Below, piece after piece: positions 6,736 to 27,957 of a stretch of 64,000 bases of DNA. The notes under the pieces are model-generated. The model was not told the DNA's origin. It ran no database searches and saw nothing but the letters and a program-made list of their open reading frames with translations. The DNA comes from Agrocybe praecox (Eukaryota > Basidiomycota > Agaricomycetes > Agaricales > Agrocybaceae), in assembly GCA_964017145.1 (NCBI GenBank), contig OZ024849.1, forward strand, positions 248,001 through 312,000, written 5' to 3'. The number at the start of each line of letters is the position of its first letter. Position 1 is the stretch's first letter. The position numbers and the translations under genes were made by a program.

Positions 6736-8240
6736 TATTAAGTAAAGCGACTCGGCGATGAGTTGAGGTATCAAGAATAGATGATGGATCCTACCGGTTT
6801 TCTAAATGACGATCGAATTGTTGAAGCTCCCCTTTATATCGTACAGTCCAAGGGGTCGCACGTTACCCTCGCACTGCATTGTGAAGATCTCCCATTGAAA
6901 AAATTCTAACAATCATTTTTTTTTCCATTATGTTCTAGGACGGCGCGTCATCAATACGTGTGGTTCAATGGCATATCCCACGTCCTCTGAGGCTACGTAT
7001 TTTGGGAATGGTCATAGGTATGCATGGTAACAGAAAAGCGCTTGAGCCCCACACCGCTGGCGCTGAGCGCTGATCTCTTTCCCTAGGAAAATGTATTTAT
7101 CTAATAACATTTTTCCCAGCGAAAAAGAAGTCAGCGCCAGCGCCGAGCGGTGCCAGCTTCACGAGGGGTCACGACTAGACTTGTGGAAATGGAAACGCAA
7201 GTAACAAGTTATGTTTCCACTTTCCACTAGGAAGCCATGCGGCCCCTCGGACATGTTTTTGTTTTTTTCGACTCCCAAGTGGCAAACCCCCTTCCTGCCT
7301 ATAATTTCCATCAGCTGTTTCTGCGCATTGCCACTAAGCATATTGCCGGTTTCCACTTCCACAAGTCTAAATATACTCGTGGGCATTGATCAATGCAAGA
7401 TGATGCGCCAGATCCGCCCCGGTGTCCGGGGTCTACAGTACGGCGTTCGGATGCTTAATATGCTGACAGCTTGCCGAGCCTCAGATAAGATAAGATGTCA
7501 CTTACTTCAGGTTGATAGGGGCTACATTTTCTCGAATATCAGAGAATACGCACAAAACTTTGAAAGTACATAATAGGTACGGTCTACGGCGACTAGAGCT
7601 ACGCTGGAGCCCTGAGAAGGCTGGAATAATGCTGGCTTGTCCCAAAAGAGACTTTCCAGATGTGGGTTGAATAATATGACTCGCACTATAATCGGTCAAC
7701 TAAGCGTTACAAGGGTCTGCTGAAGTGATTATCGAGTTTCCGACAATAGAAATGATGTGCAATTAATCTAAGTAGACCGATAATACAATATATGAGGTCC
7801 AGATTATGTACATAATACCAGCATCAACAATAATAAGTGTAAATGTAACTCCGCGTCGTCACAAGAATAAGATCTGTTATATCTAAAATTGAGATATCAG
7901 TAGGTGAGATTATGAATGAAATCTTCCCAGTATTAGTTAACCCAGTATCAACTCGTCGTCCCGATTGTTCCTCCCAGGATGTTTCTCACTTCTCAATCCA
8001 TGACATACCGAGTTCCAAGTCTATCACTCAAAATATTTCGCATCAAGATGAATCTAAGCCTTCATTAATCCCTGAATATCATTAGACCCTACGCTTCACC
8101 GCTCGACACGATCAACATTGGAACATCAATACTGAGTTCTATAGCAAGACAACCCATATCATATCACATAAGTACATTTTTCAACGTCGTCGAATATTTC
8201 GCCTGAAAATTCCAGTACAAAAAGAATTGAGGTCATCAGG
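5665..8240. repeat. Segmental duplication, copy A
   Basis: From the last exon of the 7TM gene through its upstream region to about 8240, the sequence is repeated at 9878-10185 plus 26104-29907, the second copy being split by the retrotransposon. Shared landmarks include the block from the 7TM exons, a block with cttgtggaaatggaaacgc (about 7180), a block at 7480-7700, and one at 7970-8240. Copy A lacks the TIR element at 27958-28544 and about 570 bp holding the zinc-finger frame at 29235-29800. Confidence 0.75.
7047..7157. repeat. Imperfect inverted repeat (small MITE-like hairpin)
   Basis: The left arm begins caccgctggcgctga and the right arm ends cagcgccagcgccgagcggtg; between them the arms stay complementary with mismatches down to ggaaaatg/catttttcc, leaving a short A/T loop. 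Copy B keeps only the right part. Confidence 0.4.
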
Positions 8241-8568: not shown

Positions 8569-8768
8569 NNNNNNNNNNNNNNNNNNNNNNNNNNNNNNNN
8601 NNNNNNNNNNNNNNNNNNNNNNNNNNNNNNNNNNNNNNNNNNNNNNNNNNNNNNNNNNNNNNNNNNNNNNNNNNNNNNNNNNNNNNNNNNNNNNNNNNNN
8701 NNNNNNNNNNNNNNNNNNNNNNNNNNNNNNNNNNNNNNNNNNNNNNNNNNNNNNNNNNNNNNNNNNNN
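8569..8768. other. Assembly gap (200 N)
   Basis: Exactly 200 undetermined bases. The round number suggests a scaffolding gap of unestimated size. It lies just before a palindrome-rich island, which may explain the break. Confidence 0.95.
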
Positions 8769-9870: not shown

Positions 9871-10180
9871 CGGGAGAACGATCCCTGGTGATAACCATTA
9901 ATTCTAGGCCATGTTTCCCGGTACATGCGGCATGCCATAATATTCATGAGCATCACGTTGAGTACATTTACCATCGGGTGGTATGTCGCCGGAGCAGAAT
10001 TTATAAGGGGAAATACGGATGCTAGCAGACTGGGAACGACAGTTGATCTAAAGTGAGTGATATGTCATTATATGTAGGAAGGTGGCTTAAATAAACACTC
10101 ACATATAGTAGACTTGGATATCCCGCAGAGCGGAGTGCATTGATGGGTGTAAATGATGAGCAAAAACGATCATATTAGTA

Positions 10181-10185
10181 ACGTT
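10181..10185. repeat. Target-site duplication, left (acgtt)
   Basis: The five bases acgtt before the left LTR recur directly after the right LTR at 26104-26108. Joining the flanks with one copy restores the sequence of the paralogous 7TM exon, which confirms the element's borders. Confidence 0.9.
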
Positions 10186-11935
10186 AAGGTGCTTGCTGCG
10201 GGGTTGAGTGTGTATGTACGATTTGTACTTTGTATATACTCCGAAACAAAACCCAATCAATGTGATTAGTTCTTTCGTGGGAGGGATACGCGATACACGT
10301 CGTTAATTATGTTTTCTCTCTAAAGATACGCTCTCTAATGCAACAGAACGTTTCCTAGGATCGAAGATCACAAGTGTTTGAGTAGCTTACGCACAAAGCG
10401 AAGTTCCTCGGAAAGTGTAAACGTAGATTTAATGTGTTTCCACAAGATGTAGTGTGTAGGTAGTTCGCCACTTAGGCTGGATACTTAATCCAAAGTCTTT
10501 TAATCACTTAGAAAGGGGACTCAATCCTAAACGGGCCACTTAGGCGTCACTTAGACTATTTGCCACTTAGGCAGGGAACTTATCCCTCGGAACGGGCCAC
10601 TTAGGCGTCACTTAGACAATTTGCCACTTAGGCAGGGAACTTATCCCTAGGAACGGGCCACTTAGGCGTCACTTAGACAATTCTTGCCACTTAGGCGGGT
10701 ATTAAGCTTTATGTCACTTAAGACAGAGGAAACTTTATCCCAATACGTTTATTTAGGTTCCTCGAGAACTCTGCAAGTTAACTCAAGTCGCTCAACTAAC
10801 GCCAAGATGCTCAAATGACACGGTAGGTAGTCTGTTCAATAAAACCAACTCTCGCGGAGATTTATTAGGTACAAAAGGTCGATCCTAGGAGTTTGCAACT
10901 CAATGCGCGTTCCTCGAATGTGGACAACTGGGTTCTAGTTTATCTGGGGTGCTACGGTAATTTACAGGCTGCTTATATACTGCTAGGTTTCGGAAAATAC
11001 AGGAATACTTGGAGCGGATCGGAAATGCTCGGAAAATACAGGGAATAATATTATTGGTTAACGCTAGGTAGCTCCACTCGATGCATAAGCAACCAGTAGG
11101 TACCATGCGTGTTTTTGTATACCCTCGGAAGGGTTCGTATGGTTGGGCAAGTCGCTGACTCGAGCATGACACTCCGAGGGCGCTTATTCGCATTAGCCGA
11201 CGATCATTGATCGACGTCGTAGGGTCCGAAGCATCGGAGTACCGTGGTATCGTATGGATCTACAATCCTCGGCTCCACAACTGCCGTTTAAGGTAACTGC
11301 GCATATCCGAGGGTCTTAAGACCATGTGTAAGCGTTCCTAGGAACTTCTCCTTTTAGGTTTATCGGCAATCTGACTCGAGCAGACGTCGGCAAGTCCTGA
11401 TTGACATTACTAGTGCTTGTCTCGTCGTTTTGCATAGTGCCCACTATGTTCCTAGGGACCAGTAATGTACTTTTGTTAATGCTAGGATCAGTCCTACCGC
11501 CTTGAGTTAGCGTTCCTAGGAACGTTGGCAGTAGTTTACATGTACTTTCATATGGTGGGAACTTTCCATTTCCATATTAGGTAGATGTGGACGCATCGCG
11601 CACTGCGTAATAATAAGTGGCTATAGCGCCGTTTAAGCTTATTATCAGCAGGCTCTAGCTTACATTCCTGATGGTTGAATATTATCCTAGGAGCCTTCGA
11701 TCCTGCTGCATCGCTGTTAAAGCGCTCCACGCATTTCCGAGGAACTACTATAACTAACTCTAGCATTCGTAAGGTTCGTCCTAGGGTTCGTAGAATGGTT
11801 TCCCCTAGCCAAACATGTAGCTATCCTCGCTCTGTACTTATGTAGACTTAATAATAAACGTGTTTATTATGCCGAAAATTAAGTAGGATAGATACTTGGT
11901 TAAAGTTCAGTCACAGCCGAACACCGGTCGTATCA
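10186..11935 (-). repeat. LTR (left; 3' LTR of the element)
   Basis: The repeat of 1,750 bp matches 24354-26103, with no difference noticed by eye. In element orientation it starts TGATACGACCGG and ends GCAAGCACCTT, so the 5' end is canonical TG but the 3' end is not CA. It holds a 61-bp tandem repeat rich in CACTTAG (10531-10713) and about 15 copies of CCTAGG, CCTCGG or CCGAGG. Antisense transcription for the plus-strand gene cassette would have to start here or just inside. Confidence 0.93.
10531..10713 (+). repeat. 61-bp tandem repeat inside the LTR
   Basis: Units begin acgggccacttaggcgtcac at 10531, 10592 and 10653; the third is partial. Each has three CACTTAG words; about 11 occur in 10470-10730. 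The same array is in the right LTR at 24699-24881. It could be an enhancer-like array; that is inference. Confidence 0.8.
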
Positions 11936-11947
11936 TCTCCCCCCAAC
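11936..11947 (-). promoter_or_regulatory. Polypurine tract (plus-strand primer) of the element
   Basis: On the minus strand, GTTGGGGGGAGA directly abuts the LTR start TGATACG. This is the expected position and composition for the plus-strand priming site of an LTR retrotransposon transcribed on the minus strand. Confidence 0.75.
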
Positions 11948-12296
11948 TTATAATTCGGACTGTCCTCAGTCATACTTCGAGTTTAGGCCTCTGCCGTTTT
12001 CTGGTTTTTGTTTGCCTATCAGATAAAAACTCTCGTCTCATCTTTCTCTTTGACAGGTCTTTTACTATCGGACTTAGCCATATTACTTGTAAGCTTTTCT
12101 TTATTGATTACAAGCTCATGCTATTTATAGTTTCAAGTTCTCCGCGCCTTAAGGCCTCTGCGAATAACGAAACAAACTTTCGCGAAGCTTGACACGGGTC
12201 ACACCGTATTCGCTTCTCGTTCAGGGTCGACTTTTCCTAGGATAAAGGTCGGTCAGGGTTCATCCACGCTAGTAATCCCCCTTCCTTTCCCCCCTT

Positions 12297-14383
12297 ATGT
12301 CTACCTACGGAAAGGCTACCTATCCTGCCGGTTTTATCGAATACGAGGTCGACTCTCTGACTCGTACCGAGGCTGAGAAGGTTCATTTTCTCCTCCAACT
12401 AGAGTCTGGTACTCTGGACGACCTCGTAAAGCCTTTCCTTCTTGCCGTCAGTGCCAAGCAGGGATATCTGGCTATCGCTGGTCTGGCGGTGCCCATCCTT
12501 GAGGCCATGCAACCTCACGTCGTATGTTTTTTTTTTTTTTCTTTCATACTCGTTCTGATTTTTATTATTATTTATTATGCCCATTTCTCTTTCTTAGAGC
12601 GGCTCTTGGACTCGTATCAGTGCCCACAAGCTTTTATGCCGATTTCGCCTTCGATGGTCTACAGTCGCCACCCTCTGTCTCAACTTCTGTCCCCCTGCGC
12701 ATCCGATAGTAGATTCCTTCGACGACTTTGCCGTTTCTGGTACCCCCTCGATTGCCAAGACCTCTGATTTGTGGAACCGATGCGACGTCGGGTCAGACGC
12801 TGACGAATTCTTAAGCGAGTACAATAGGATCCAAGCGTTAATAACCGCGAGGAACGCCAAGAAGACGAAGGATGCAAACGATGCGAAGAAAGCAAGGGAC
12901 GCGAAGGACGCGAAGGCCGTAAAAGAGACGAAAGGCGCCAAGAAGACCGTTCTTAGGAGGTCAGGCCCCAAACCCGGTTCCAAACGTCAATCCACTTCAA
13001 AGGCTCCGCCACCCGTCGTCGAGTCCGGTTCTGAGGGAGAAGAGGATGAAGAAGGAGATCCTCCTGTCGAGCCCCTTATCGACGAGCTCGAGGGAAGGTC
13101 AGAAGACGGCGCTACGCCTGCTCCTGCCCCCAGCTCCGACGGTGTCGAAGTCAGTGCCCCTCTCCATCCTCCAATTACGACTCTTACTCCTATTACCCGT
13201 TCTTCCGTTCGCAAGTTCGTATCCGAGGTCCTCCTTCCCGCTCCATCCCGTATTGACACACTACGCAGTAAGCGTGTTCGCACTTCCTCGGAAGCTGCCA
13301 ACGACGACCCTTCCGCGAAGCGTCCCAAACGAGGCGGTAGCAAGGTGGCCCAGGATTTTATCAAGAGCGAGCCTCCTGTGCTCCCCAAGGTCTTTCGTCT
13401 CTTTTTAATTTCGATTTTTCCTCGCGAACTGATTTTTCTCTTTCTCAATTCTTAGTCAGGCAAGAAAGCAGCCGCAGAACAGCGCGCCGCCAACCTTTCC
13501 GCTCATTCTGCCCCTCTGTCCTCTGTTATACGATGGGACGACGTTCTAGGGTTCATCCCTCATGTTGAACCTGTAAGTCTTTCTTTTTGACTACGTTCTT
13601 TCCTTATGCTAAGTATTTTATTTTTCATAGCGTGCAACCGAATGTAGTGTGTGCGTTGGCCAGCTCCTCGAATGTACCCCCGCCGTCTTCGGACAACTCT
13701 GCGGTACTTGCGACACTCGTCACATTACTTGCTGCGACCACAAAGCAGAGGGTACGGTTCGTCTCGCTCACCGCAATGCTGCCTACGAGCGCGGCGCTTT
13801 CTCTATACACCGTATGTCTTGGTTTTTGATCTTAACTTTTTCTATCTTTCTGACGGACTTTCCAGACCTCAAAGATCTTGTCGAGCGTGGCCGCGAGTCT
13901 CGTGAACAGGAGCGTCGTCTCTTGGAACTTTTTAGATTTCAGCAAGCGATCTCTATCGACCTCGAGGTTCAAATGCAGCAGTTCATCCGTGACACGGTCG
14001 CCCTGTCCCCCGAAGGTCCTGGAGCTCTCATTCGCTCTGCCTTCGAAGATGTGCACGTCTTCCAAGCCTTCTGTCGTCAACTTTCCGGCTTGAATTTCCC
14101 TGACGCGGACAATCGTACTCAGACGCTCGAAATCCTTCTTCGTCGCATGCCTGATGCAATCAAGTCTCGTTTCCCTGCTCATCTTCGTACCATGCTCGAC
14201 TCGTCGCTCCCCTTTTTTCATATCCCCATCGACGCACCTTCTACCATCGTCAATACCTCTGCTAGCACCGCCGGGTTGCCTCCGGATCAGGATGACTTGG
14301 TTATAGAGGTTCCTCGGGCGGAAGAGGACGTGGTCATGGAGCCAGTCGTTGCGAATGATGACGCAAGCGCCCCCCCTGCTTAA
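12297..14383 (+). CDS. Element-borne antisense gene A: 610-aa protein with Zn2Cys6-spaced cysteines
   Basis: Five exons, 12297-12521, 12598-13389, 13456-13572, 13631-13811 and 13866-14383, join without a stop to 610 aa. Donors are gtatgt, gtcttt, gtaagt and gtatgt. Residues about 160-195 are a Lys/Ala/Asp-rich repeat, 200-310 are acidic and Ser/Pro-rich, and about 313-317 (KRPKR) looks like a nuclear localisation signal. C383, C386, C393, C402, C405 and C412 have the spacing C-x2-C-x6-C-x8-C-x2-C-x6-C, that of fungal Zn2Cys6 DNA-binding clusters, though fewer basic residues surround it than usual. The C-terminal part is helical and charged. It is transcribed against gag-pol. A DNA-binding regulator is a reasonable inference; it is not proven. 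Confidence 0.78.
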
Positions 14384-14909
14384 CTCTCCTAGAAAATCTT
14401 TTCGGTTCTATTAAATTAGAACACTGTCTTATTCATTTTCTAGAGTAGCGTTTTCGTAGGTCGGGGTTCTTTATATTTTTTTACAACGCATATCCCTTTT
14501 TGCGGGTTCTTTGCCCCAACGAAATTTATAATCTTTTTCTTGTTCGTTTACTTTGCACAACATTTCTAAGAATCTCCCTTAAGTATTTCAAGAAAACTTA
14601 TAAACCCTTGAGAGACTTTAAAAGAAGACGGCTCTTCCAAGTTGCTAGGATATCTCTGTTGGCTGGTAGGCAGGCTCCCCCCAACTTAAAGAAGCGACCT
14701 CCCGGTCGACCCAGGAAATTCCGATATGCCGGAGATGCCCGTGTTTCGCTTAGCAGCACAACCAAAAACGGCTAATCACCTTCCAGATTGGAAAAAAATG
14801 ATGGCCTAATTCCGTGTGGCCGCGTGCAACAAAAGTATCCAGCGCGATCTTCCAGAGGCCCATAAAAGGTGTGACAAACGAAAGGCTGAACCTCGACGGC
14901 TCCTTGGCT
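14384..14909 (+). other. Spacer with an AT-hook-like coding remnant
   Basis: A plus-strand frame ending at 14775 lacks an ATG but contains KKRPPGRPRK (about 14690-14719), an AT-hook-like core. A second frame, from ATG at 14735, reads LPDWKKMMA, meets TAA at 14807-14809, and continues protein-like (DLPEAHKRCDKRK) to about 14990. These may be remnants of an upstream exon of gene B or of another gene. No complete model could be built. Confidence 0.35.
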
Positions 14910-15632
14910 ATGTCTGTCTACCCACCCCTAGGAGTCATCTTCAACCCCCAAGCATTGTCAGATACCATGGACCAGTATCAAACTGAGGCTATGTTGTATC
15001 TGGACATACTTGACGATTTGCTAGAGACGCCTATCCAGGCTAATCCTGCTCGAGTAACGTTCCTAGGAACTGATCAACGATGGTTCGCACTTGTCAGCGC
15101 CAAACAACGCCTGGACGAAGCACTTTCCAATCCTGCCAACGGTACCGAGGAACTCCAAAAGGAGCGTAACTTGCCTCCCCTGGAGCTCATACTCAAGGTA
15201 ACCGCTGCCTTGGTAAGACCAACCCGTCGTCCTTATGTTGTATGCGAGGAGAACTCACTCCTCTTAGATGCAGTTCCATCCTGACGACATCAAGTACGGC
15301 ACAGAGCTTGGACACATATTCATTGACATTAGCTTTCACTGGGTGGTCATATGGTACATGAACTTCACTGCCTCGCCGATGAACGCCTGGATATGTCGTG
15401 TTTTATTCGACCACACACTTCCTAGGTGTTCCGAGCGTACTGTAATGGTACGTTATGATCCCAAGAACTGTCCTCGGATTAAATTATTAATGCAACTGGG
15501 TTTCAGTCGCGCGGCGGTTCGTGGGGGGATCGCCTTGAATCGCTCCTCGCATCCAACGCTCCACTCGCACTAACCAGCAAACTTCAGCGCATTTTCAAGT
15601 TTCGCATGTGGCACCAAGGCCAAGTATCTTAG
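14910..15632 (+). CDS. Element-borne antisense gene B: 197-aa protein of unknown function
   Basis: Three exons, 14910-15197, 15268-15447 and 15507-15632, join in phase 0 to 197 aa. The introns (gtaacc...cttag and gtacgt...tttcag) are 70 and 59 bp. The N-terminal part contains an acidic helix (LYLDILDDLLETP) and RWFALVSAKQRLDEAL; the middle is aromatic-rich (ISFHWVVIWYMNF), and the end is basic. No family is recognised. It lies between genes A and C on the same strand, against the pol direction. Codons are clean across three exons, which argues for a real gene; the true start could be upstream, because the frame is open to 14814 without an ATG. Confidence 0.6.
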
Positions 15633-16001
15633 AAGAGGTTTTCCAGAGCAGGCTTCATTCCTAGGGTCCCAAATGCGCTTCATCGGAATGGTGAAGTTTT
15701 CATTCGATCAGTAGAGCAGCGTTTGTACTGTACCCTTTTTAGATCGATCCACCATTGCCCATATGCAGTCATTATGCTCCAACTCGATCCTTAATACAAT
15801 TCCCACTTCCGCTCTCGCAGTCCGAGTAAAATTTTTACTGTTGTGTTTCCTCGCGCACATGTCCTCCCGAACGGGGCCACATGGTTCCTCGGAATGACGA
15901 CTCTGTTAAATTTTACCACAGCACTATAAAGGCGGGTCGGTTTTCGAGGTCCTAGGATTCAACACCAAGGTGCTATCTTCCCAGTACACACTTTTTCTTG
16001 C
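15633..16001 (+). promoter_or_regulatory. Spacer between genes B and C, likely holding the promoter of C
   Basis: No coding frame is supported here. The stretch has three copies of the element's recurrent motif (CCTAGG at 15660 and about 15952, CCTCGG at about 15890), and gcactataaagg at about 15921-15933 is TATA-like, about 70 bp before the ATG of gene C. Confidence 0.45.
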
Positions 16002-17362
16002 ATGCCCGACCTTTCTCCCAGCGTCCTCGAGGTGAAAGCTGCGGTAGGTGTGCAATACCACCTTGCCAAAGCCGAAACCATTTCCTCGGAGAAAAATGGC
16101 GAGTCAGCCTCCGCTCACTTGGCTCTCATCTGCGAGAAACTTGTAAGTGACCTTCCTAGGACTGCTCTTCTCTGCTTAACACGCTCCCCTCGACATCGCT
16201 CAGGCTCCCTGGTTCGAACAGTCAGACAATGTCTGGCTCGCTGGACAAGAGGCGTTTGACTTGGTGTTCAATCTCCGAGATTCTCTTGCAGCACTCGTAC
16301 GCTTAGGCAGCGAGTATTCCAGGAGGTTCTCCAAGGAGGCCCAGTCCGTTAGCCTTCTCATCAAGTTCATCTATGCCAAGCGCACTTCTACTGGTCTCTA
16401 CTGCCCCGGCGGTCCTCCATTCATGAATCTGAAGAAGAAGACTTCGTCCGAAACTGTCGAAAAAGCCACAACTGCGGACCCTGAGGTTGCAGATAATGGA
16501 GCACACACCGCGGTATGTCCATTCCTTTTACTTCCTCGGATCGTTTTGACTGACGCCTTTCGTTAGAACAAACAACGCTCTGGTCGTTTGTATAAAGAGA
16601 AGGTTGACTCGGAAGAGGTAGAGGTCGTATCTTCTACTACCTCTAATTTTGAGCTGACTTCTGACGAGGTAATGAAAACCCTATCCCCTTTCCTTATGAA
16701 CCTTATTCACGCGGTGCAGGCTATGCAAGTCGACGACGACATGGTGGAGGTGGCTTCTATTGTCAGCGCTCCCCCCGCGTCGCAGAGCCGCAAAGGTAAA
16801 GGATCTAAAAGAGAGGTCCTCTCTCCCAAGGCAAGTACCTTATTTCTCTTCCTAGGAAATTGGGACTGATTCATTACTCGTACCAGCCGGAGGCTTCCTC
16901 TTCCTCGAAACCTTCCAAGGCCGAGAAACGTGCTGAAACTCGCATGCTCGAGTTCGAGGACGTTCCTGGAATTGCTACAGACTCTGGATCTTACAAGAAA
17001 GCGTCCAAGTCGGTCAAGAAGAGCAAAACCAAGGATACTGTGGACAGTACGTTTTGATTTTCTCTTATGTGTTTTGTTCCTCGGATACTAATTTTCTTGC
17101 TTTAGTTACCCTCGAGAACACTATTCTTCCAAACACCTTCTCGCCTCAATCTACAGCCGTCGCTATGAACATTGCTGAGAGCATCACTGCGAAGTTCCCT
17201 CAAAACCGCGATGTCGCTGCACTTGAGCGTCACCTTAGGTGTCTCCGGGACAGTGCTCAGGATGTTGACTACCAGATCTGGCAGTCTGTTGGGCAGCGTC
17301 AATTCATTCAGCGCCAAATTGTCTCCCTCGAGAAAGCTCAGGTTGACGCTAAAAAGGACTAG
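16002..17362 (+). CDS. Element-borne antisense gene C: 376-aa charged protein
   Basis: Five exons, 16002-16142, 16204-16512, 16567-16830, 16887-17046 and 17106-17362, join without a stop to 376 aa. Intron 3 uses GC-AG (gcaagt...taccag); the others are GT-AG. The N-terminal half is helical (VFNLRDSLAALVRLG), the middle is Lys/Ser-rich with possible nuclear signals (KGKGSKREV, KSVKKSKTK), and the end is probably coiled coil (ALERHLRCLRDSAQDVDYQ). No family is recognised. The stop is only 58 bp from the pol stop on the other strand, so the transcripts converge and probably overlap at their 3' ends. A role in nuclear regulation of the element is possible but inferred. Confidence 0.72.
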
Positions 17363-17420
17363 TCTTATCCTTCCTAGGGTACAAGCTATATTCGAGTAGA
17401 CTCATAATATATTTGTCTTT

Positions 17421-20400
17421 TTACTCATTTTCATTTTCGTTTTCTGAAGTCGATCCTCGGAGAGTCACTTCTCCTAGTATCGGGTCGTACACATCCTCGG
17501 GTCCATTCTCAATCAAATCTAGTGCCGAAGTTGGCATATCTATCAGAGTCTGAATCGACTCAGGTAGTTCTAGATGTTCTCTAGCATAGTATGGTACTAC
17601 TCTGAAGGCTCCAATTTTATTCTGTAAGACCGCTCCATTCATTTCGGCGACTATATAGGACCCTCCCCGAGTTCGTCGTATGACAATCATCGGTCCTAGG
17701 TACCTAGGTTTCATTTTCTTATCCAAGGATTTTTCTATGGTAGTATTCCGTACCAAAACCAAATCTCCTGGTTTAAAAACGTAGTCCTTGATGACAGCTT
17801 TGTGGTCTTGCTCATATTTCAATAGACGCTCGTATTTATCTTGGTCTACCCTTTTGCGCATCTCATCCACATGAAGTTTATGTTTGGCGAGCGCTTTTGC
17901 TCGGAATCCAATTAACTCTTCATCTGATAAAATTCGCTCAGGAGGTTTAACCAACCAAGTAGCTTCTTGGGCGTCTAAAGGTAGAATTGGTGATGCCCCT
18001 GTTACCATGAAGAAAGGTGAACATCCTAGACGTTTCCTGACCGTTACTCTATCTGCCCACTTAATGTAAGGAAAGAACCAGAACCACTTGTTCACATCGT
18101 CTTTTCCTAGCATTTTGTACAGCATTTGTCTGACATCCCAATGTGGTCTTTCTATAGCGCCATTGGCCTTCGAGTTATAGGGTGAAATACGAATTCCCTT
18201 AATCCCATATTTTTCCTCGAGCCATCGTGCAGCAGCTAAGAATGGTCCCCCATTGTCTGTTATGAACTCCACCATACAAGCCCATCTACAAATGATGTCT
18301 TCCCAGATCCATTGACCGATTGACTTGCCATTTTCCTTTTTCAAGGGTCTCCCTTCCATATAAGAAGATAGAGCGCACCTCCCATGGACAATATACGAGC
18401 AACCGTTCGATGGAGGAGTCATGTTGATACAGTCCGCATGCATACTTTGAAATATGGAAGGAGTATGTGTAATAGATGGTTTTATTCTTATTAATGTCTT
18501 TTGTCTTTCCTGACAATTATGACATGTCTTAACGAACCAGTTCACATCTTTTTCCATTTCTGGCCACCAAAATCGTTCTACTAGCAACTGATTAGTCGCA
18601 TAGAATCCTCGGTGCCCCACATGATCATGCGCAGCCGTCAACATGTACATCCTTTTATCTTTGGAGACCACTAATCGGTGCTTGGTTCCATCTCCCCTTC
18701 GATACAAACGTTCCTCGAATAATATGAATCGTTTTGCTAATGTTATAAAACGTCTATACTGTTTCTCGGACATCCCTATCGGTCTGAAGGATCTATCCTT
18801 GTGCCATTCCATCACCCAATCTAACTTGTGGTCTTGTGCTTTAGCTGTGTCCGACCTATGTTCCTCGGGATATCGTATTTTCTTAAATTCGTTTTCCTCG
18901 GGTAACATAAGTGTAGATACTAGCTGTTGCACATAAGCACATCTCTCTTCTCCTAGAGCCTCTTTATTTCGACTGATGTGTTCTTCTAGGAAAGCTTTTT
19001 CCGACATACGAAACTCATCTGCTTTAGCAAGCTCCTCTGAAAAGTCCTCGACGTCTCTAGCAATGCCCTCGTACTCATCGTCTTTTTCTATTAGACTAAT
19101 GAAAGATTCTAATGGTAATGGTTCAGAAACCTCCTGTAGATATCCTCCTCGGGAATCTATCTTATCTTTGAAGGTCTCGGTTTCCAACGGCATAGGCCCA
19201 TTAGGATCCGCAAACTCTATTTTGATGGGCGCTTCTGGCTCCATTTCCTCGGAACCAGCTTCCCTTAAGGGTGGATCATTGGGCTGCCTTGGCCTCCTAG
19301 AGAGTCCGTCAGGCCCGAATGTCTTTCCTGGTACATGCCTTAGAGTAAAATGATACATCCCAATTTGGTCGATCCAGCGATTGATTGTAGCATTAGGCAT
19401 AAGGTCGGGATTGCGAAGCATTCCAGCGATATACTTAGCATCTGTCTCGACAATCAACTTTCGGACTCCAATTAAATGTTTTCTATTTTTCTCAAGTGCT
19501 AATTTGAGTCCGTAGAGTTCTCGTTTGGGCTGAGAGTATCTAGCTTCGTGTTCTTCCAAGGACTGAGATCCAAAGGTAACATAGTAGCGTTTCCTAGGAT
19601 CTTGACTATCCTCTTGGTAGATGTACCAGCCTGCTGCAATATAAGAAGTGTCCACTGCTAGTACTATATCTCCCTGACCATGATAGTCTATAGGCTTTAA
19701 GCACTGAGCATCTCGGACCCCTTCCTTCATTAACTGCATACTCTTTTCTTGATCCGGACCCCATTCGAAAGGTACTCCTGCTCGCATTAGCTTGTGGATG
19801 TGTTTTGCACGATCTGCAAACCTAGGAATATATGCTCTCAATACTCCGCAAGTTCCATAGAAGGAGCGCACATCCGACACATTTTTCAAAGGTCCCCAAT
19901 CGAGGATAACCTTAACTCGACTCTCAGTAGGCTTACGTCCATCCGAGGAACATAAATGTCCTACTACCTCTACAGCATCTGCGCATATGACGGTTTTATA
20001 CCCGGAGAAAGTTCCTCCAGAGTATTTCATCCGTTGTATAATTCGATTTACATTTTGCAAGTGTTCCCAAACGAATTTCCTAATGCCAGGATTCTCGGGT
20101 AACACTTCGTAGGTCCCATCCTCATTTTGGTAACGAGAGGCCGGTCCTCGGAAACCTACGTCGTCGATATATGGACTTGTGTACTCAGGAATTTCATCCT
20201 GTAAGATATGGGTTACATCGTCATGGAATATAGGTACTGAGTTTGTCCAACCCATTGGTAAGGTGGTTAACCTAAGCGCTCCAAAGGGTGATTGGAAAGT
20301 GGTAAGATCCCTAGAGCTTTCAGCTAAAGTTCTCTCATCATATCCAACGTACAAATCTCCCATTCCAACACAAGCACGTCCACAAAAGTGAATAGCAAGT

Positions 20401-21238
20401 TCTTCCGCAGCTGGTGGGACTCCTGAGTGCGCTATAGTAACCGCGTTCAAAGGTTCCAAGCTTTGGACTATTCGAAGACTTTTCCCATCTTTCTTTAATA
20501 CAGCAAACCACCTCGAACGATAGGACGAACACGAAGGTTCCATTACTCCACTTTTCAACTTGGATCGGATTAATTCGCAAAGTGGCTCGTATAACCCTGG
20601 TGAAATCGGAATATTTTTAAATACCCAAGGAGTGTGTTCTACCGTAGGCATAATGACTGGCGGAAAGAACTCTTCCTTGAATTTTCCTCTTTCCGAATCA
20701 TCCCAAGCGAAAGCTTCGTTCTGGTTCATAAGTAGCTCGTGTATTGATTTCCGTTCCTCGGACCACAGAAAGTCCCCTTCGTGCTTAGCGTCAAAGGCTT
20801 TCATGCGTTCCTCGGTGTACCTTCCTGTTGGTTGGAAGTCTGGTGGATTAACACTTAAGGGCGGCATATCCTGCAATGGATCCCCTTTAATATTTCGATG
20901 GATTCTCAAGTTTTCTGGAAGTTCAGTGTAAACCGGTCGGACTTTCTTGTCTACCGGTTTGTACTTTTTTCCTAGGAAAACTGAAGCGGAAGGTTCATTC
21001 TCTTTAACCTCTGGTTTAATATCTTGTAGATAAATCTGGAACTTTCTTTTGTCCGCAGTCTCTACATGCTCGCTATCTACTGCTCTTGACAAGAAAACAT
21101 TTCTTAGGCCATCCTTGGAAAATGCTTTCTTATCCACCTGTGTCGTATACGATTCTATTTTTATTTCTCCGGTTTTATGATCATATTCAAAAACAACTGC
21201 CGCCTCTCCCTGGTCTTCCAGTTCATTAAGGCAATTTA
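17421..21238 (-). CDS. Pol: reverse transcriptase, RNase H and integrase of the retrotransposon
   Basis: A single open frame of more than 1,238 codons. Counting from the GTG at 21137: the RT active site YIDD is at 323-326 with GDLYVGYD near 260; RNase H acidic residues are D495, E540, D566 and D610; the integrase zinc site has H837/H839/H842 and C872/C875; the catalytic triad is D902, D961 and E996; a GPY/F-like segment (RYLGPMIVIRR) lies near the end. No ATG opens it. The frame extends upstream to the protease stop and is in -1 relation to it at CCCTTTT, so it is probably made as a Pro-Pol fusion by frameshifting. It ends 58 bp from antisense gene C. All catalytic residues seen are intact. 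Confidence 0.93.
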
Positions 21239-22486
21239 AAAAGGGTCGTCTGGAGACTTAGGCGGTAGTTCCACCACTTTCTCGTCAAACTTTTCTTTTT
21301 GCAGCTCAATCGGTCCCTTTCCTCGAGCATAAGTAGGAATTACTACTCGCCTTTTGGAGTTAGGATCAGTCAAGAGAACCTCCACATATCCGTCCGTCAT
21401 AGTCTTTACTACACTCGTCGTAACCGTGTCAAAAGGCTTTCCTAAGAGCACCCTGTAAGGCGGGTTCCTGACGATATGTATCTGTAGATAGACCACTATC
21501 CCTCCAACCATTATTTTTACGTTCTCTGCGATTCCTAGAGTCCGTTCTAACTGGTTGTTGGCACTTTGCATATTTATGCTAAGGGAAGGGTTCCAGGATA
21601 ATCCCATCTCTACAGCGACTTGTTGTGACATAGATACAATCTGAGATCCACTGTCTAAGATAGCATTTTCGAATCCTACATTATTAATTTGCACTTGAAT
21701 CTCCCGAAGACTTTCAGCGTTCCTAGCACGGTCCCTATAAGGTTCCTTGGGTACGGCTCCGTTATGTTTGAGCGCAAACTGATAATAAGGGTCACTGGCT
21801 ACAATGGCGTCTGCAGGAAGGTTACTCAAGCTTGGACAATCTTTTGCTAGGAGAAATTGAGAAACCGGCAACTGTTCTACAGCTAAGCCTGTCTCGATTT
21901 CATGATACAGGGGAAGTTCCTCGTGTCCCTTGGAACACATCTCTGTTTCATGATCATCTTCTAGGATCTCCTCCATAAGCACTGCTTGTCTAGTTTTCGT
22001 AAAATTCTTTCTTAACGCCTCTCGTATGTGTGGCGCACTTCCCACTAAGTGTTTTAATGGTACTGATATGGACATATCCAATATGTCGTCCACCATTTTA
22101 TTTCCGTCCGTGCTATCTTCCACAGGTGCCCTAGTACGGTACGCAGGCACGGGTCTTTCCTCTTTCTTCTCGTCCGAGGAAGTATTCGTAGGCCTCGATA
22201 CTCTAGACATAGGCGGTACATCTATGTAAGGTAACAACGGTCTTTTGGGCTCGCTCTTTTTATTATTTTCTGGTTGTGTCTCTTCTCTAGGAACTTCTGG
22301 TTCCTTATCGAATCTGACACTTTTCTTTTCCTTACTAAACATCCCTTTACTCCTGCTGTTATTGTTCTCAAGGTTCGTAGCTGTTCTCGGACTTATTCTC
22401 TTAGCCCCAGCTGCAGGTGGTCCTATCCTTGAACTTAAGGAAAATTTTCGAAAGCATCTACCGCACCTTCGCCAAAGAGTACTCAT
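21236..22486 (-). CDS. Retroviral-type aspartic protease with long N-terminal extension
   Basis: The 416-codon frame starts at an ATG (22484-22486) that overlaps the gag stop as ATGA. Residues 1-260 are polar and low in complexity. The catalytic motif ILDSGS is at about 276-281 (Asp278) and a flap/C-terminal motif YRVLLGKPF follows about 75 residues later, as in gypsy proteases of the DSG type. The enzyme cuts Gag and Pol precursors and acts as a dimer. Its last codons form the slippery heptamer before TAA. A separate pro frame is less common than gag-pro or pro-pol fusion. Confidence 0.88.
   Translation of the reverse strand: MSTLWRRCGRCFRKFSLSSRIGPPAAGAKRISPRTATNLENNNSRSKGMFSKEKKSVRFDKEPEVPREETQPENNKKSEPKRPLLPYIDVPPMSRVSRPTNTSSDEKKEERPVPAYRTRAPVEDSTDGNKMVDDILDMSISVPLKHLVGSAPHIREALRKNFTKTRQAVLMEEILEDDHETEMCSKGHEELPLYHEIETGLAVEQLPVSQFLLAKDCPSLSNLPADAIVASDPYYQFALKHNGAVPKEPYRDRARNAESLREIQVQINNVGFENAILDSGSQIVSMSQQVAVEMGLSWNPSLSINMQSANNQLERTLGIAENVKIMVGGIVVYLQIHIVRNPPYRVLLGKPFDTVTTSVVKTMTDGYVEVLLTDPNSKRRVVIPTYARGKGPIELQKEKFDEKVVELPPKSPDDPF
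21239..21245 (-). promoter_or_regulatory. Putative -1 ribosomal frameshift site (CCCTTTT) between pro and pol
   Basis: On the minus strand, the codons GAC CCT TTT TAA give the X XXY YYZ heptamer C CCT TTT directly before the protease stop. A slip by -1 reads CCC TTT TTA AAT and enters the open pol frame without a stop. This matches the geometry of known retroviral frameshift signals. A downstream stem-loop was not worked out. Confidence 0.7.
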
Positions 22487-24165
22487 TCGAGAGCTTCTTT
22501 TCCATGCTCTCTTACTAAGTCGTCTAAGCGCCTAGAGATGTCTTCCGTGGGAGGGCAAACTTCCTCGGATTGAACGAACATCTCACAATCTTCTTCATAC
22601 TCAGGATAATACCCTTGCATGGCTTGGATTTTGGCGTTGGGAATAATCCCTGGTTTATTACGATACATGTTTTCTACTGCTTCTCTCATAGACCTGAATC
22701 CTTGGAGAGGTATGGGCTGTCCAGACGCTAGCGCATACTTTCCCTCGGAATTCCTTTTGATCCAATTCGACTTTACATGTTTATCTGCTGCCGCACAGTC
22801 AGCTAGACGATGTCCAGGCTCTCTACAATAATAGCAGTGACTGGGTTGGAACCCATTTGAATTATTGTAGGAAGACCTATCATAAGGCCTAGGGTACATA
22901 GAAGACGGTTGCGTTGGTTGAGGGGCCACGGCTGATTGCTTCCAACTTACTAGGGTAGATTGTAGGCTTTCAAACTTCCTCTCCGCAGCTTCTGCTCGCT
23001 TTTCCTGTACCTCTGACTTCTTTAATAGAAGATTTAAGCCATCCGAGAGCCTAGCCACGGTCTCCTCCATTTTAGGGAAGAACTCAGGAGTTTCCTCGGG
23101 TTGAGTTTCCATCGTTCTCCTTCTCGAGGAAGGTTTTTCAGAACGAGTTTCTTTATCCCCTTCGTTCAAAATAGATTGTGACCTTCTCAAAGCCATGTTT
23201 ACAACAATTTCCATGACTTTGGCGACTTTGAAATCGGTTCCTAGACCTAGACTATCTTTATTTTGAGCCATGTCGATGACATGTAGTGCCTGCGAGATTT
23301 CGTCTCTGAAACCTCTTTCTAAACAGCTCAAGAATCGTTGTATTAGATCCCTTTCAGACACTTGACCCGCTAGCTTTCGAGATAGAGTGGTAAACTTGAG
23401 TTTCAGCGCCATGATTTCCTCTAGGTCTGTTTTCATCAAGCTATTCCTGTCTACATATCTCGAGCATAGTTTATCAAGGTCGTGTAGAGATCCTTTTTGT
23501 AGGCGCATTGCCGCTGGATACGAAGCGATCAATTCGTCTTTAAACTTTGACCAGTCTTTCCCGGTATATGCGTTAAAAGACTTCCAATCATCCTCGCATA
23601 CTGGCGAAGCATATTTTCCTAACATAATAATTTTCTTTTCATCCGTATCAGCTTCAGTAGGATATTGAACCCAGAGGTCTTCCATTCGCTGTATGAAGCG
23701 GAGGAGTTCCTCGGGACTCTTTTCATCGAACTTCGGCGCATCTCTGCTCATAGGAGAAGGGAAACCCATCTTTGGTGATACCGGAGTAGTTGGTCTACTT
23801 GTAGTAGGTTGTGTTGGTGAATTAGGAGCTAGATTCAACTTGTCTAATAGACTAGCGATGACTTCTAAGCTATCTGATTCTGAAGTTGTCTCCCTAGGAT
23901 CTTCGAGAGAACTTGTATCGATAGTAGGTCGATTAACCGGTCTCTGAGGTGCACTCGGAGGTCTGATTAACTGCCTATTTTCTGGAGTTGTAGGTCGCTC
24001 TCTGCTTGGTTCAGCTGGAAAGTCTCCTGGAACTCTTTGGGAGGGCGTACTCGCTCTGGTTTGTCTTTTCCTAGGAACCCTAGTAGGTAATTCCGCAAAA
24101 CCTGCTTGTCTCGAGTTATTCGTTTGCCTAACTCGTTTAGCCTGTCCTGCCGGTTGATTATCCAC
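22483..24165 (-). CDS. Gag-like capsid/nucleocapsid protein of the retrotransposon
   Basis: The open frame encodes about 560 aa. The N-terminal 130 residues are Pro/Ser/Thr-rich; the middle resembles retrotransposon gag helices (FIQRMEDLWVQYP, SRKLAGQVSERDLIQRFL). A CCHC zinc knuckle is at C444-x2-C447-x4-H452-x4-C457 (CYYCREPGHRLADC). Gag forms the particle and packages RNA. The frame begins with GTG at 24163-24165 shortly after an in-frame TAA, and no ATG occurs between the right LTR and the frame; the true start may come from splicing of an LTR leader, a non-AUG start, or an internal Met near residue 134. The frame ends as ATGA with the protease. Confidence 0.85.
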   Translation of the reverse strand: MDNQPAGQAKRVRQTNNSRQAGFAELPTRVPRKRQTRASTPSQRVPGDFPAEPSRERPTTPENRQLIRPPSAPQRPVNRPTIDTSSLEDPRETTSESDSLEVIASLLDKLNLAPNSPTQPTTSRPTTPVSPKMGFPSPMSRDAPKFDEKSPEELLRFIQRMEDLWVQYPTEADTDEKKIIMLGKYASPVCEDDWKSFNAYTGKDWSKFKDELIASYPAAMRLQKGSLHDLDKLCSRYVDRNSLMKTDLEEIMALKLKFTTLSRKLAGQVSERDLIQRFLSCLERGFRDEISQALHVIDMAQNKDSLGLGTDFKVAKVMEIVVNMALRRSQSILNEGDKETRSEKPSSRRRTMETQPEETPEFFPKMEETVARLSDGLNLLLKKSEVQEKRAEAAERKFESLQSTLVSWKQSAVAPQPTQPSSMYPRPYDRSSYNNSNGFQPSHCYYCREPGHRLADCAAADKHVKSNWIKRNSEGKYALASGQPIPLQGFRSMREAVENMYRNKPGIIPNAKIQAMQGYYPEYEEDCEMFVQSEEVCPPTEDISRRLDDLVREHGKEALE

Positions 24166-24333
24166 TTTAGCTTCCTCGGAACTTTAGAACCGATTTAATT
24201 GAGCTTCAGCCAAATGTTTTTGTGTTTTTGTTTTTAATAAACCTCGTCAAAGTTTATTCACTCGTTTAATCTGGACACTAAGATGCAATCTCTCACTTCG
24301 AGACTCGTAACTTTAGTGAAAGAAAACACCCTC

Positions 24334-24350
24334 CCTCGCGGTGGGCTCCA
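24334..24350 (-). promoter_or_regulatory. Putative primer-binding site
   Basis: On the minus strand, three bases after the LTR end (ATC), TGGAGCCCACCGCGAGG begins with TGG, as expected for pairing to a tRNA CCA end. The tRNA was not identified; the base before CCA would be U. Confidence 0.6.
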
Positions 24351-24353
24351 GAT

Positions 24354-26103
24354 AAGGTGCTTGCTGCGGGGTTGAGTGTGTATGTACGATTTGTACTTTG
24401 TATATACTCCGAAACAAAACCCAATCAATGTGATTAGTTCTTTCGTGGGAGGGATACGCGATACACGTCGTTAATTATGTTTTCTCTCTAAAGATACGCT
24501 CTCTAATGCAACAGAACGTTTCCTAGGATCGAAGATCACAAGTGTTTGAGTAGCTTACGCACAAAGCGAAGTTCCTCGGAAAGTGTAAACGTAGATTTAA
24601 TGTGTTTCCACAAGATGTAGTGTGTAGGTAGTTCGCCACTTAGGCTGGATACTTAATCCAAAGTCTTTTAATCACTTAGAAAGGGGACTCAATCCTAAAC
24701 GGGCCACTTAGGCGTCACTTAGACTATTTGCCACTTAGGCAGGGAACTTATCCCTCGGAACGGGCCACTTAGGCGTCACTTAGACAATTTGCCACTTAGG
24801 CAGGGAACTTATCCCTAGGAACGGGCCACTTAGGCGTCACTTAGACAATTCTTGCCACTTAGGCGGGTATTAAGCTTTATGTCACTTAAGACAGAGGAAA
24901 CTTTATCCCAATACGTTTATTTAGGTTCCTCGAGAACTCTGCAAGTTAACTCAAGTCGCTCAACTAACGCCAAGATGCTCAAATGACACGGTAGGTAGTC
25001 TGTTCAATAAAACCAACTCTCGCGGAGATTTATTAGGTACAAAAGGTCGATCCTAGGAGTTTGCAACTCAATGCGCGTTCCTCGAATGTGGACAACTGGG
25101 TTCTAGTTTATCTGGGGTGCTACGGTAATTTACAGGCTGCTTATATACTGCTAGGTTTCGGAAAATACAGGAATACTTGGAGCGGATCGGAAATGCTCGG
25201 AAAATACAGGGAATAATATTATTGGTTAACGCTAGGTAGCTCCACTCGATGCATAAGCAACCAGTAGGTACCATGCGTGTTTTTGTATACCCTCGGAAGG
25301 GTTCGTATGGTTGGGCAAGTCGCTGACTCGAGCATGACACTCCGAGGGCGCTTATTCGCATTAGCCGACGATCATTGATCGACGTCGTAGGGTCCGAAGC
25401 ATCGGAGTACCGTGGTATCGTATGGATCTACAATCCTCGGCTCCACAACTGCCGTTTAAGGTAACTGCGCATATCCGAGGGTCTTAAGACCATGTGTAAG
25501 CGTTCCTAGGAACTTCTCCTTTTAGGTTTATCGGCAATCTGACTCGAGCAGACGTCGGCAAGTCCTGATTGACATTACTAGTGCTTGTCTCGTCGTTTTG
25601 CATAGTGCCCACTATGTTCCTAGGGACCAGTAATGTACTTTTGTTAATGCTAGGATCAGTCCTACCGCCTTGAGTTAGCGTTCCTAGGAACGTTGGCAGT
25701 AGTTTACATGTACTTTCATATGGTGGGAACTTTCCATTTCCATATTAGGTAGATGTGGACGCATCGCGCACTGCGTAATAATAAGTGGCTATAGCGCCGT
25801 TTAAGCTTATTATCAGCAGGCTCTAGCTTACATTCCTGATGGTTGAATATTATCCTAGGAGCCTTCGATCCTGCTGCATCGCTGTTAAAGCGCTCCACGC
25901 ATTTCCGAGGAACTACTATAACTAACTCTAGCATTCGTAAGGTTCGTCCTAGGGTTCGTAGAATGGTTTCCCCTAGCCAAACATGTAGCTATCCTCGCTC
26001 TGTACTTATGTAGACTTAATAATAAACGTGTTTATTATGCCGAAAATTAAGTAGGATAGATACTTGGTTAAAGTTCAGTCACAGCCGAACACCGGTCGTA
26101 TCA
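24354..26103 (-). repeat. LTR (right; 5' LTR of the element)
   Basis: 1,750 bp, matching 10186-11935. In element orientation it drives gag-pro-pol. Both copies carry the same short frames and tandem array. No mismatch was noticed on reading; a base-by-base alignment would date the insertion. Confidence 0.93.
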
Positions 26104-26108
26104 ACGTT
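26104..26108. repeat. Target-site duplication, right (acgtt)
   Basis: Direct copy of 10181-10185. Confidence 0.9.
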
Positions 26109-27957
26109 TCGTGCCGTTTCACTCGCATGCGATTTTCGAACGATTTGAGTAGTGATTGCAATGGCGATCAAGGTGTTATAAATAAAAATAAGAATCGCTG
26201 CAGCAGAAACATGATATTCAACCTTCGAGACCATGCAATACTTTGTCGGGCCAATGTTGGTCCCAGTTCTTCCCTGAGTGACCGCTGAAGAGCCCGTTAG
26301 TACGGACAGAAGCATCAATCTAAAAAAATTGTTAATAAGGCTACTTATAAATAGCGCTTTAATCCGGGGTAGGAGAAGGATCAAGGTTAGGGAGACTGCC
26401 AGGGGCTGGAGCCAACCGAGAGACTTCTCAAGGAAATGGCAATTTCCCATAGGGAATACTAGAAGGAAAATCAGTACAGCTGACGAGTAGCAGTCCTTAA
26501 ACGCAGACTTACCATAATATATAGTGCTACTAAGCACATATCCAAGAGCAGCGATCCTATTGATAAAAGCAGAGTAAGTATGGAGGATGTGTCATATTTG
26601 ATAGGTATACCCGACCTGGACATAATGTATAACACCATAGGTAGAGTGTCTATCGTCCTTAACATACGGCTGTCAACCATAATGTTACAGAAGACGTTCC
26701 AAAATAAAACCTGTATTGTTTAGAAAGGAATTGATTAATGAGGGTAAAGGATCCATGACAGTTATTCACGTACCGCAGACGATCCTGTCAAAGTATAGAT
26801 TGTAATTGTCACTGCGTTTGCCAGCTGTGGCGATAGATACGCCAGTGGCGATAGATACGCCAGTGGCGTGTTGGGATTCAATATCCCTAATGTCGCGTTG
26901 GAAGACATTATTAAGTAAAGTGACTCGACGATGAGTTGAGGTATCAAGAATAGATGATGGATCCTACCGGTTCTCTAAATGACGATCAAATAGTTGAAGC
27001 TCCCCTTTATATTGTACAGCCCAAGGGGCCGTACGTTACCCTCGCACTGTATTGTGAAGATCTCCCATTGACAAAATTCTAATAATTTTTTTTTTCATTA
27101 TGCTCTAGGACGGCGCGTTATCAATGCGTGTGAATCGATGGATGTCCCACGTCCTCTCTACCCTTTGTCGATATCCGGAGGGAAAAGGTGTCGGGCTTGC
27201 CGTTTTAGAAATCTACGAACCCCTTTCTCATTGTTTATTTCCCCGAAACAGACAAAGGATACACAAATATATATGTCATGGAAGCCAGAATACAGTCGGT
27301 TAAATGATATATTTATCTCCAAGGAAAGAGATGAGACTATATGTGACTATTTCCGTGTCAAAAAAGAGGCGCAGATCCTCTGTCTTCCGAATTTATCTCA
27401 GGGATAAAGGTTATAATTTTCTGAAAGAAAAAGGTTTTTGATTCTAGGCGAAATTTATCTGATAACCTTTTCTCCAGGGAAAGAGAAGTCAGCGCCAGCG
27501 GTGCCAGCTTCATGAGTGGTCACGACCAGACTTGTGGAAATGGAAACGCAAGTAACAAGTTATGTTTCCACTTTCCACTTGGAAGCTATGCGGCCCCTCG
27601 GACATGGTTTTTTTTCGACTCCCAAGTGACAAACCCCCTTCCTTCAGCAGAATACCGCAGTGCAGAATAATGGATACAGCGTGATTGAGGAAACAACGAG
27701 AGAACACTTGACGCGGACGCGACCAACCGCGCACGCGTGATCGGCTGCGCGATGCCGAGTAGTGACCCCGGATTTGGCCGATGCCAATTTTTGCCACTCG
27801 TATAGTATTTTCACCAGCCGTTTCTGCGCATTGCCACTGAGCATATTGCCAGTTTCCACTTCCACGAGTATGAATATATTCGTGCGCATTGATCAGCGTA
27901 AGACGATGCGCCAGATGTGCCTCAGTGTCCGGGGTCTAGTACAATTCGGATACTTAA

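Follow-up and report, generated by a model that had tools for sequence, protein, structure and literature searches.

We describe a Ty3/gypsy-type retrotransposon that spans positions 10185..26103 (~16 kb) of a 64,000-nucleotide stretch of the 59.2-Mb genome of Agrocybe praecox (C10:248001-312000; this whole stretch is called the window, and positions are counted within it). The near-complete copies of this young, autonomous-looking family all carry three antisense spliced genes, A, B and C. An 8-10 bp word, TTCCT(C/A)GGA(A), is dispersed through the element far above chance, including the coding sequences of gag, pol and B beyond codon constraint, and A, a conserved protein maintained by purifying selection, has been exchanged as a module between element lineages. 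The best explanation of the whole, to which we give a probability of about 0.5, is that A binds DNA, recognises its own element by this word and acts there as a regulator or as an anti-silencing factor; the estimate is held at that level because the link between A and the word is drawn from their co-occurrence, the cysteine-cluster pattern of A and analogy. An earlier note on this DNA had drawn attention to the cassette, and the dispersed motif, the two types of A and the CpG target site are additions to that observation.

The antisense cassette and its copies

Between pol and the 3' long terminal repeat (LTR), ~5.5 kb carries the plus-strand genes A (five exons), B (two) and C (five), opposite to gag, pro and pol. 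Splice models were read from the sequence, and the in-frame exon models reproduce all three protein lengths given in the earlier note. Intron 3 of C is of the GC-AG kind, with an acceptor ending at 16886, and gives the length of 376 aa.

12297..14383, plus strand: gene A, 610 aa; exons 12297-12521, 12598-13389, 13456-13572, 13631-13811, 13866-14383
14910..15573, plus strand: gene B, 197 aa; exons 14910-15197, 15268-15573
16002..17362, plus strand: gene C, 376 aa; exons 16002-16142, 16204-16512, 16567-16830, 16887-17046, 17106-17362

Probing the genome with the LTR located the family in at least 41 places (40 scored of 104 candidates), 40 near-full and one a fragment. Ten elements have both LTRs, ~14-15 kb apart from start to start, and an eleventh copy (C8:2931860-2978480) is spread over ~46 kb by inserted DNA, ~30 kb of which sits inside B; its outer flanks share GCGC, and its A and C are still open. 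Every one of the 11 near-complete copies found has the complete cassette, always antisense and always located between pol and the 3' LTR. The earlier note had suggested a search for LTR elements of 15-16 kb with this layout, and they exist in this genome as nine other full-length copies and the interrupted one; copies lacking the cassette, which would have pointed to a one-off capture, were absent from this set. The two LTRs of the window element are 100% identical over 1751 bp, and those of the nine other full copies differ by 0-2 substitutions, indicating that the ten full copies are young.

Coding capacity is well preserved. A is open with its GT..AG sites kept in 11/11 copies, and C is likewise open in all 11; B and gag are each open in 9/10 scored copies (gag and pro of the interrupted C8 copy fell outside the copy comparison), the stops in both belonging to a single copy at C10:0.96 Mb. 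The pol frame is open over 1274-1278 aa in 10 of 11 family loci. Within the family, replacement and silent changes were compared with a neutral expectation of ~3:1, the kinship of the copies being ignored: replacement changes made up 16/34 in type 2 of A (the types are described below; p = 3e-4), 16/29 in C (p = 0.013) and 16/26 in B (p = 0.08, not significant). The proposal that the cassette is under selection is thus shown for A and indicated for C; for B, the weakest of the three cassette genes, it is not shown.

Searches of the genome with the three genes returned mostly the family itself. B gave 22 matches, in family copies only; C gave 60, in family copies and one relic at C13:2.08 Mb; and A gave 58, in family copies and at C2:2.36, C5:3.02, C8:2.46 and C4:0.38 Mb, the C2 and C8 places lying near a family LTR. 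The earlier note had asked whether A, B or C match ordinary host genes, and none was identified among the matched places, the one at C4:0.38 Mb standing outside the examination. At C5:3017000-3026000 lies a diverged relative with the order LTR, A fragment, pro-gag, LTR and without B, C or pol, arranged as two 6149-bp head-to-tail units, the second of which was seen for 2.85 kb and is identical to the first there; it is possibly non-autonomous.

Searches of protein databases yielded little. For the three cassette genes Pfam gave nothing above its cut-off; below it were matches to Mu-transpos_C in B (E = 0.088) and to TMV_coat in exon 5 of A (E = 0.02). Whole A had no homologue at 1e-3 among the 8000 best word-sharing candidates of 5.8 billion proteins, nor had its residues 355-560 at 1e-3 in the 5.8 billion, a collection whose fungal coverage is uncertain. 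A 104-residue piece of A found nothing significant among PDB sequences, and a reverse transcriptase (RT) piece, the only query of that search, found nothing in IMG/VR.

Gene A, the dispersed word and related families

Gene A occurs as two diverged types inside full copies that are otherwise 93-100% identical.

12186..14240: swapped module; identity to nine of ten other copies 65-78% in steps of 500 bp, against 93-100% over the remainder of the full copies
13643..13732, plus strand: cysteine cluster CX2CX6CX8CX2CX6C of A, residues 383-412, exon 4; identical in type 1 and type 2 proteins

Eight of the nine other full copies show 65-77% identity to the window element across gene A only (500-bp steps), and the copy at C2:3.32 Mb shares the window's type (type 1). 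The borders of the module are sharp, near 12.18 and 14.24 kb. The interrupted C8 copy, 67-78% identical across A and 72-88% just beyond, has type 2 A up to ~14.18 kb and is then unlike both types, which implies at least two exchanges. Between types 1 and 2, dS is 0.94 and dN 0.126 (dN/dS = 0.134), with dN/dS of 0.02 in residues 341-440, which hold the cysteine cluster, and 0.07 in residues 441-575; the four introns are 38-69% identical, with splice sites kept. Low dN/dS, kept splice sites and scrambled introns together argue that A is a real, selected protein. Between the window A and the same-type copy there are 2 silent and 5 replacement changes, too few to judge. The middle of the protein is basic and of low complexity. 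The six-cysteine spacing is what we take to be the Zn2Cys6 pattern, yet there is no match to the PF00172 profile.

The word was counted in 14,168 bp, a single LTR together with the internal region, and compared with 68,578 bp made up of the window flanks and four loci (L049, L051, L052 and L053).

10354..24179, either strand: 59 CCTMGG cores (M, C or A), 36 of them full TTCCTMGG; one LTR counted

Counted once per site, there are 36 full words in the element and 2 in the comparison sequence. On both strands, TTCCTCGG occurs 20 times against 0.9 expected and TTCCTAGG 22 times against 1.1; the palindromic TTCCTAGGAA is counted twice in these figures, whose overlapping total of 42 corresponds to the 36 sites. 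Full sites are spread over the LTR (7), A (2), B (3), the B-C spacer (2), C (5), pol (9), pro (1), gag (4) and other short stretches (3), with 0 in the A-B spacer; cores number 15 in the LTR, 16 in pol, 7 in gag, 1 in pro and 5 in B coding sequence, and are few in gene A and pro and absent from the A-B spacer. In 500 codon-preserving shuffles, pol had a mean of 2.3 cores and a maximum of 8, gag 1.2 and 6, and B 0.9 and 4, all below the observed counts, so the excess is not due to codon use. The word also emerges from separate parts of the element: CCGAGGA reaches z = 12.5 in gag-pro-pol alone (largest of 30 shuffles, 7.0) and CCTAGGA z = 13.8 in B-C alone (shuffle maximum 6.7), and two host flank stretches of 6.7 kb have no word above shuffles. 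Genome-wide, each strand has 198 occurrences of TTCCTAGGAAC, while a reversed control word has 14 on one and 12 on the other, family and non-family sites being pooled.

Each of the four introns of C holds one TTCCTMGG, in the same number and order in the 11 copies examined, and the introns of A and B hold none. The diverged C5 relative keeps 7/7 distinct full sites of the LTR (p = 0.027). Within gag-pro, window element and C5 relative share 2 cores and have 4 private to each side; cores that are mostly private point to turnover of the word.

More distant relatives were sought with the RT, 110 of 209 candidates being scored; the matches listed comprise 11 family loci at 98-100%, five at 60-62%, three at 51-52%, and then lower values. 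Three of the five and one of the three were examined, their pol ends being estimates that take the length after the RT as in the window. The relative at C6:1.98 Mb (62% in RT) has an estimated ~2.0 kb between pol and the 3' LTR, with a different antisense gene, spliced by eye, that carries CX2CX6C-25-CX2CX6C, and a candidate word of its own, ACGTTCG (z = 8.0 against 6.8 for the largest of 30 shuffles, from one 3.6-kb stretch). Its antisense protein had no homologue at 0.01 among the 7999 best word-sharing candidates of the same 5.8 billion proteins, with the same uncertainty over fungal coverage. In the relatives on C7 and at C10:1.3 Mb the 3' LTR begins an estimated 0.11 and 0.16 kb from pol, which leaves no room for an antisense gene; such a gene is therefore not universal in the clade. 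Neither yielded a clear word: over the 2.4 kb covered on C7 the best 7-mer, CGACGAC, is simple-repeat-like (z = 6.7 against 6.5), and over the 2.2 kb covered of the C10 relative the best 7-mer lies below the shuffles. The 52% relative at C13:0.24 Mb, L051, whose 3' LTR was not delimited, had no match to A, B or C.

What the cassette and the word may do

In the reading we favour, an antisense promoter next to the 3' LTR would produce a spliced A mRNA and, from it, a protein that could enter the nucleus and, with its Zn2Cys6-like cluster and basic middle, bind the dispersed word. Many A molecules would load along family members and keep them active. A would most likely counter silencing of the CpG-methylation type, whether or not it also activated the LTR promoter directly, and B and C would be its partners. 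The antisense placing would keep the introns, since in the gag-pol genomic RNA they run backwards and cannot be spliced out. A word that occurs within the coding body and not in the LTR alone speaks more for action on chromatin than for action on the promoter only.

Old copies bear marks relevant to such silencing. In the C relic at C13:2.08 Mb, 27/56 substitutions are at CpG (p = 3e-11), with 27 of 118 CpG bases changed, whereas the 430 other C/G positions show 12 C-to-T or G-to-A changes; and the observed/expected CpG ratio is 0.58 in the old C5 relative against 0.95 in the window element. CpG-biased change of this kind is the trace of CpG methylation. Repeats of the mushroom Marasmius oreades carry CpG methylation, its active transposons to a lesser degree (PMC9674265).

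A more ambitious version is put forward tentatively, as more likely wrong than right: A might coat family members and keep them unsilenced through a self-word present at ~2.5 per kb, coding sequence included, and related lineages might arrive at new pairings of protein and word and pass the protein gene among themselves as a cassette, making the system an independent fungal counterpart of VANC in a retrotransposon.

Several observations weigh against A as the reader of the word. Both types of A reside in elements with the same word, so that A and the word do not co-vary. Outside the element, too, the core CCTMGG is common (34 in 68,578 bp), the contrast lying in the full word, which is itself sparse inside gene A; there is no clear excess of cores in the coding sequences of A, C and pro, the exons of C having 1 against 1.3 expected. 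TCCTCGG outnumbers CCGAGGA by 23 to 4 over the element, a bias unexpected for a simple double-strand site, though absent in the LTR (4 vs 3). Conservation of LTR cores alone in the C5 relative (13/15, p = 0.07) is not significant. At E<=1 Pfam assigns neither A nor C to a family, at E<=10 it finds nothing in the cysteine exon of A, and B has neither significant selection nor, in one copy, an intact frame. As for the relatives, the C6 word is only modestly above shuffles, the negative results for words in the C7 and C10 relatives come from 2.4 and 2.2 kb only, and the proteins encoded by A and by the C6 antisense gene have no detectable homology despite their common place and cysteine pattern, so that a shared origin of the two genes is unproven.

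The missing direct link between A and the word, and the constancy of the word across A types, would also be expected if the element used the word to attract a host factor (an activator, insulator or chromatin protein) and the cassette did other work, for example exporting the genomic RNA from the nucleus or handling it, the part that CERV plays for Cer1; LTR elements with RNA-export accessory proteins do exist (CERV/Cer1, PMC10309623). We consider this unlikely but worth serious attention. The full word is far rarer in the other sequence examined (2 in 68.6 kb), which is unlike a host regulatory word in general use, nothing comparable appears in the two families, seen in part, that have no antisense gene, and the DNA-binding-like cysteine cluster sits in the most conserved part of A.

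Somewhat less probable again is a classical activator or repressor module (Tat- or HBZ-like) that acts on the LTR only, the other words being by-products. It would account for the 15 cores of the LTR, 7 of them full and all 7 kept in the diverged C5 LTR, and plant antisense proteins of the Retand lineage have been proposed to be regulatory (PMC11963269). It fits poorly with the 29 cores in the coding sequences of pol (16), gag (7), pro (1) and B (5), of which those in pol, gag and B exceed shuffles, as by-products should not be selected.

Two further readings are improbable, to a similar degree. The bias of the C-type word (23 vs 4 over the element) might mean that the word acts in RNA, in packaging, export or dimerisation of the genomic RNA; palindromic A-type words are mixed with C-type words, the LTR has both orientations, and a function for opposite-strand RNA is not obvious for the words in the four C introns. 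The cassette might instead have begun as another mobile element nested in an ancestral Ty3 and now travel as part of it, as a second polypurine-like tract at 14673-14687, the modular exchange with sharp borders and the sub-threshold Mu-transpos_C in B could suggest, but no transposase domain rises above the cut-off, no repeat bounds the cassette among self-matches over 80 bp, and its place is the same in every copy. Least credible is a one-off capture of host genes or a set of functionless open reading frames (ORFs): the lack of an A homologue in the large protein collection may be read in its favour, but the cassette is in every near-complete copy, purifying selection acts on A and is indicated on C, no host-gene match was identified in the genome (the C4 place being left out), and a dN/dS of 0.13 refutes this reading for A.

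Element structure, target sites and known systems

The remaining features of the element and its ends are as follows (LTRs, tracts and primer binding site named in the gag-pol sense).

10181..10184: left target-site duplication, ACGT; NCGN pattern as in other copies
10185..11935, minus strand: 3' LTR, TG...TA, 1751 bp
10530..10699, and again 24698-24867: tandem repeat of 61-bp units within the LTR, containing CACTTAGGC boxes and CCTMGG sites
11936..11949, minus strand: polypurine tract, AAGTTGGGGGGAGA; a similar LTR-adjoining tract in three related families
11958..11972: short inverted repeat, GACTGTCCTCAGTCA; kept with small changes in three related families
14673..14687, minus strand: second polypurine-like tract, AAGTTGGGGGGAGCC, in the A-B spacer
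17421..21137, minus strand: pol, 1238 aa from the first listed start (GTG); YIDD, RNase H, integrase
21236..22486, minus strand: protease ORF, 416 aa; Pfam gag-asp_proteas, 1.8e-8
22483..24165, minus strand: gag ORF, 560 aa, CCHC knuckle
24333..24350, minus strand: primer binding site, TGGAGCCCACCGCGAGGG, 2 nt inside the 5' LTR
24353..26103, minus strand: 5' LTR, 1751 bp
26104..26107: right target-site duplication, ACGT

By structure the element is Ty3/gypsy: it has an LTR pair with target-site duplications, a primer binding site and a polypurine tract, and the order is protease, RT, RNase H, integrase. The minus-strand gag, pro and pol reported in the earlier note are borne out by the ORFs and by Pfam matches to the protease, RNase H (5.1e-13) and the integrase zinc domain (4.4e-17). 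The extent given there holds except for its start, which was 1 bp late; the terminal T is assigned to the LTR, which begins at 10185, because of the target-site duplications in other copies. The CCHC profile match in gag (E = 1.1e-3) is below the Pfam cut-off. In pol the YIDD box lies at residue 323, RNase H at 459-593 and the integrase zinc domain at 825-880; no Pfam RT model matches at E<=0.01, the RT being known by its YIDD box only. There is no ATG near the start of the pol frame. The protease ends in CCCTTTT-TAA (window 21225-21260) with pol in the -1 frame, and this is a possible -1 ribosomal frameshift site into pol. Retention of the polypurine tract and inverted repeat among the relatives fits sister families. 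The tract in the A-B spacer may be a central polypurine tract. The 61-bp LTR repeats contain another enriched word, CACTTAGGC (GCCACTTA, 8 against 0.2 expected). An Rfam scan of the window found nothing.

All ten full copies have NCGN target duplications. Among 18 further cases (17 of 18 single LTRs, that at C9:1338489 lying outside the survey, plus the interrupted copy), 10 have equal 4-bp flanks, again all NCGN, which makes 20/20 matched duplications. The other eight comprise four unequal pairs (GCGT/GTGT, CCGT/CTGT, CCGA/CCGG and CCCT/CCGT), one GTGT/ACAA and three without a right end where expected. As CG makes up 4.9% of flank dinucleotides, 20/20 is far from chance, and the pattern suggests that the integrase is drawn to CpG centres. 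The window element itself lies inside one copy of a duplicated host stretch (9874-10182 and 26103-27157 vs 5642-6988, 91-93% identical), the other copy of which is uninterrupted ~4 kb away; within it ~5841-6060 matches the joined flanks, and this empty site reads ACTT at the duplication position. A 200-base run of N, perhaps a gap in the assembly, occupies 8569-8768. Three related minus-strand ORFs of 535-571 aa (754-2469, 32739-34346 and 36269-37957) have DTCCIDKSSSAELDESIRSMF-like stretches in common and are presumably HET-domain genes.

A resembles the fungal Zn2Cys6 regulators of the Gal4/Pdr1 type in its cysteine spacing and differs from them in having no Pfam match and few basic residues in the cluster. 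Pdr1 and Pdr3 bind TCCGCGGA, and Lys14 binds TCCRNYGGA, close in form to TCCTMGGA. The VANDALs of Arabidopsis are not known to be LTR elements, and the present element is not one of them. In the VANDAL/VANC system an element protein reads a short word repeated in its own family, and related families differ in their word, which lies in introns and non-coding DNA (PMC5735166, PMC10398659). The present element likewise has a short word that recurs throughout its own family, partly in introns and other non-coding DNA; binding is proven for VANC and inferred here, and the word is also in coding DNA, whereas that of VANC21 is mainly non-coding (PMC5735166).

Among plant Ty3/gypsy elements, the Retand lineage (TRP28, maize Grande, rice RIRE2) also has a long region between pol and the 3' LTR with antisense ORFs, which occur in all surveyed recently active clusters, with a predicted DNA-binding product, and tandem repeats in many (PMC11963269, PMC7264820). 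Plant antisense accessory genes of this kind are documented there with function unknown and DNA binding only predicted (PMC11963269, PMC7264820). Our element differs in its fungal host, its three antisense genes with nine predicted introns, the cysteine cluster, the dispersed self-word and the module swap; membership of Retand was rejected, as A, B and C have no TRP28 (PF04195) match at E<=1. HBZ of HTLV-1 is also an antisense gene of a retroelement, with a nuclear regulator as its product (PMC11963269) and an antisense promoter in HTLV (PMC7264820), but HBZ is a single gene and the A protein is unrelated to it. No fungal LTR element with an antisense gene cassette was found by title or abstract among the papers listed from an open-access library, most subscription papers being outside that scope.

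The element offers a candidate target open to direct testing, a 10-bp word together with a candidate protein in two divergent types, and the same genome holds related families with and without an antisense gene. If A does read the word, sequence-specific self-recognition by transposons would extend from the VANDALs of Arabidopsis to a fungal retrotransposon.

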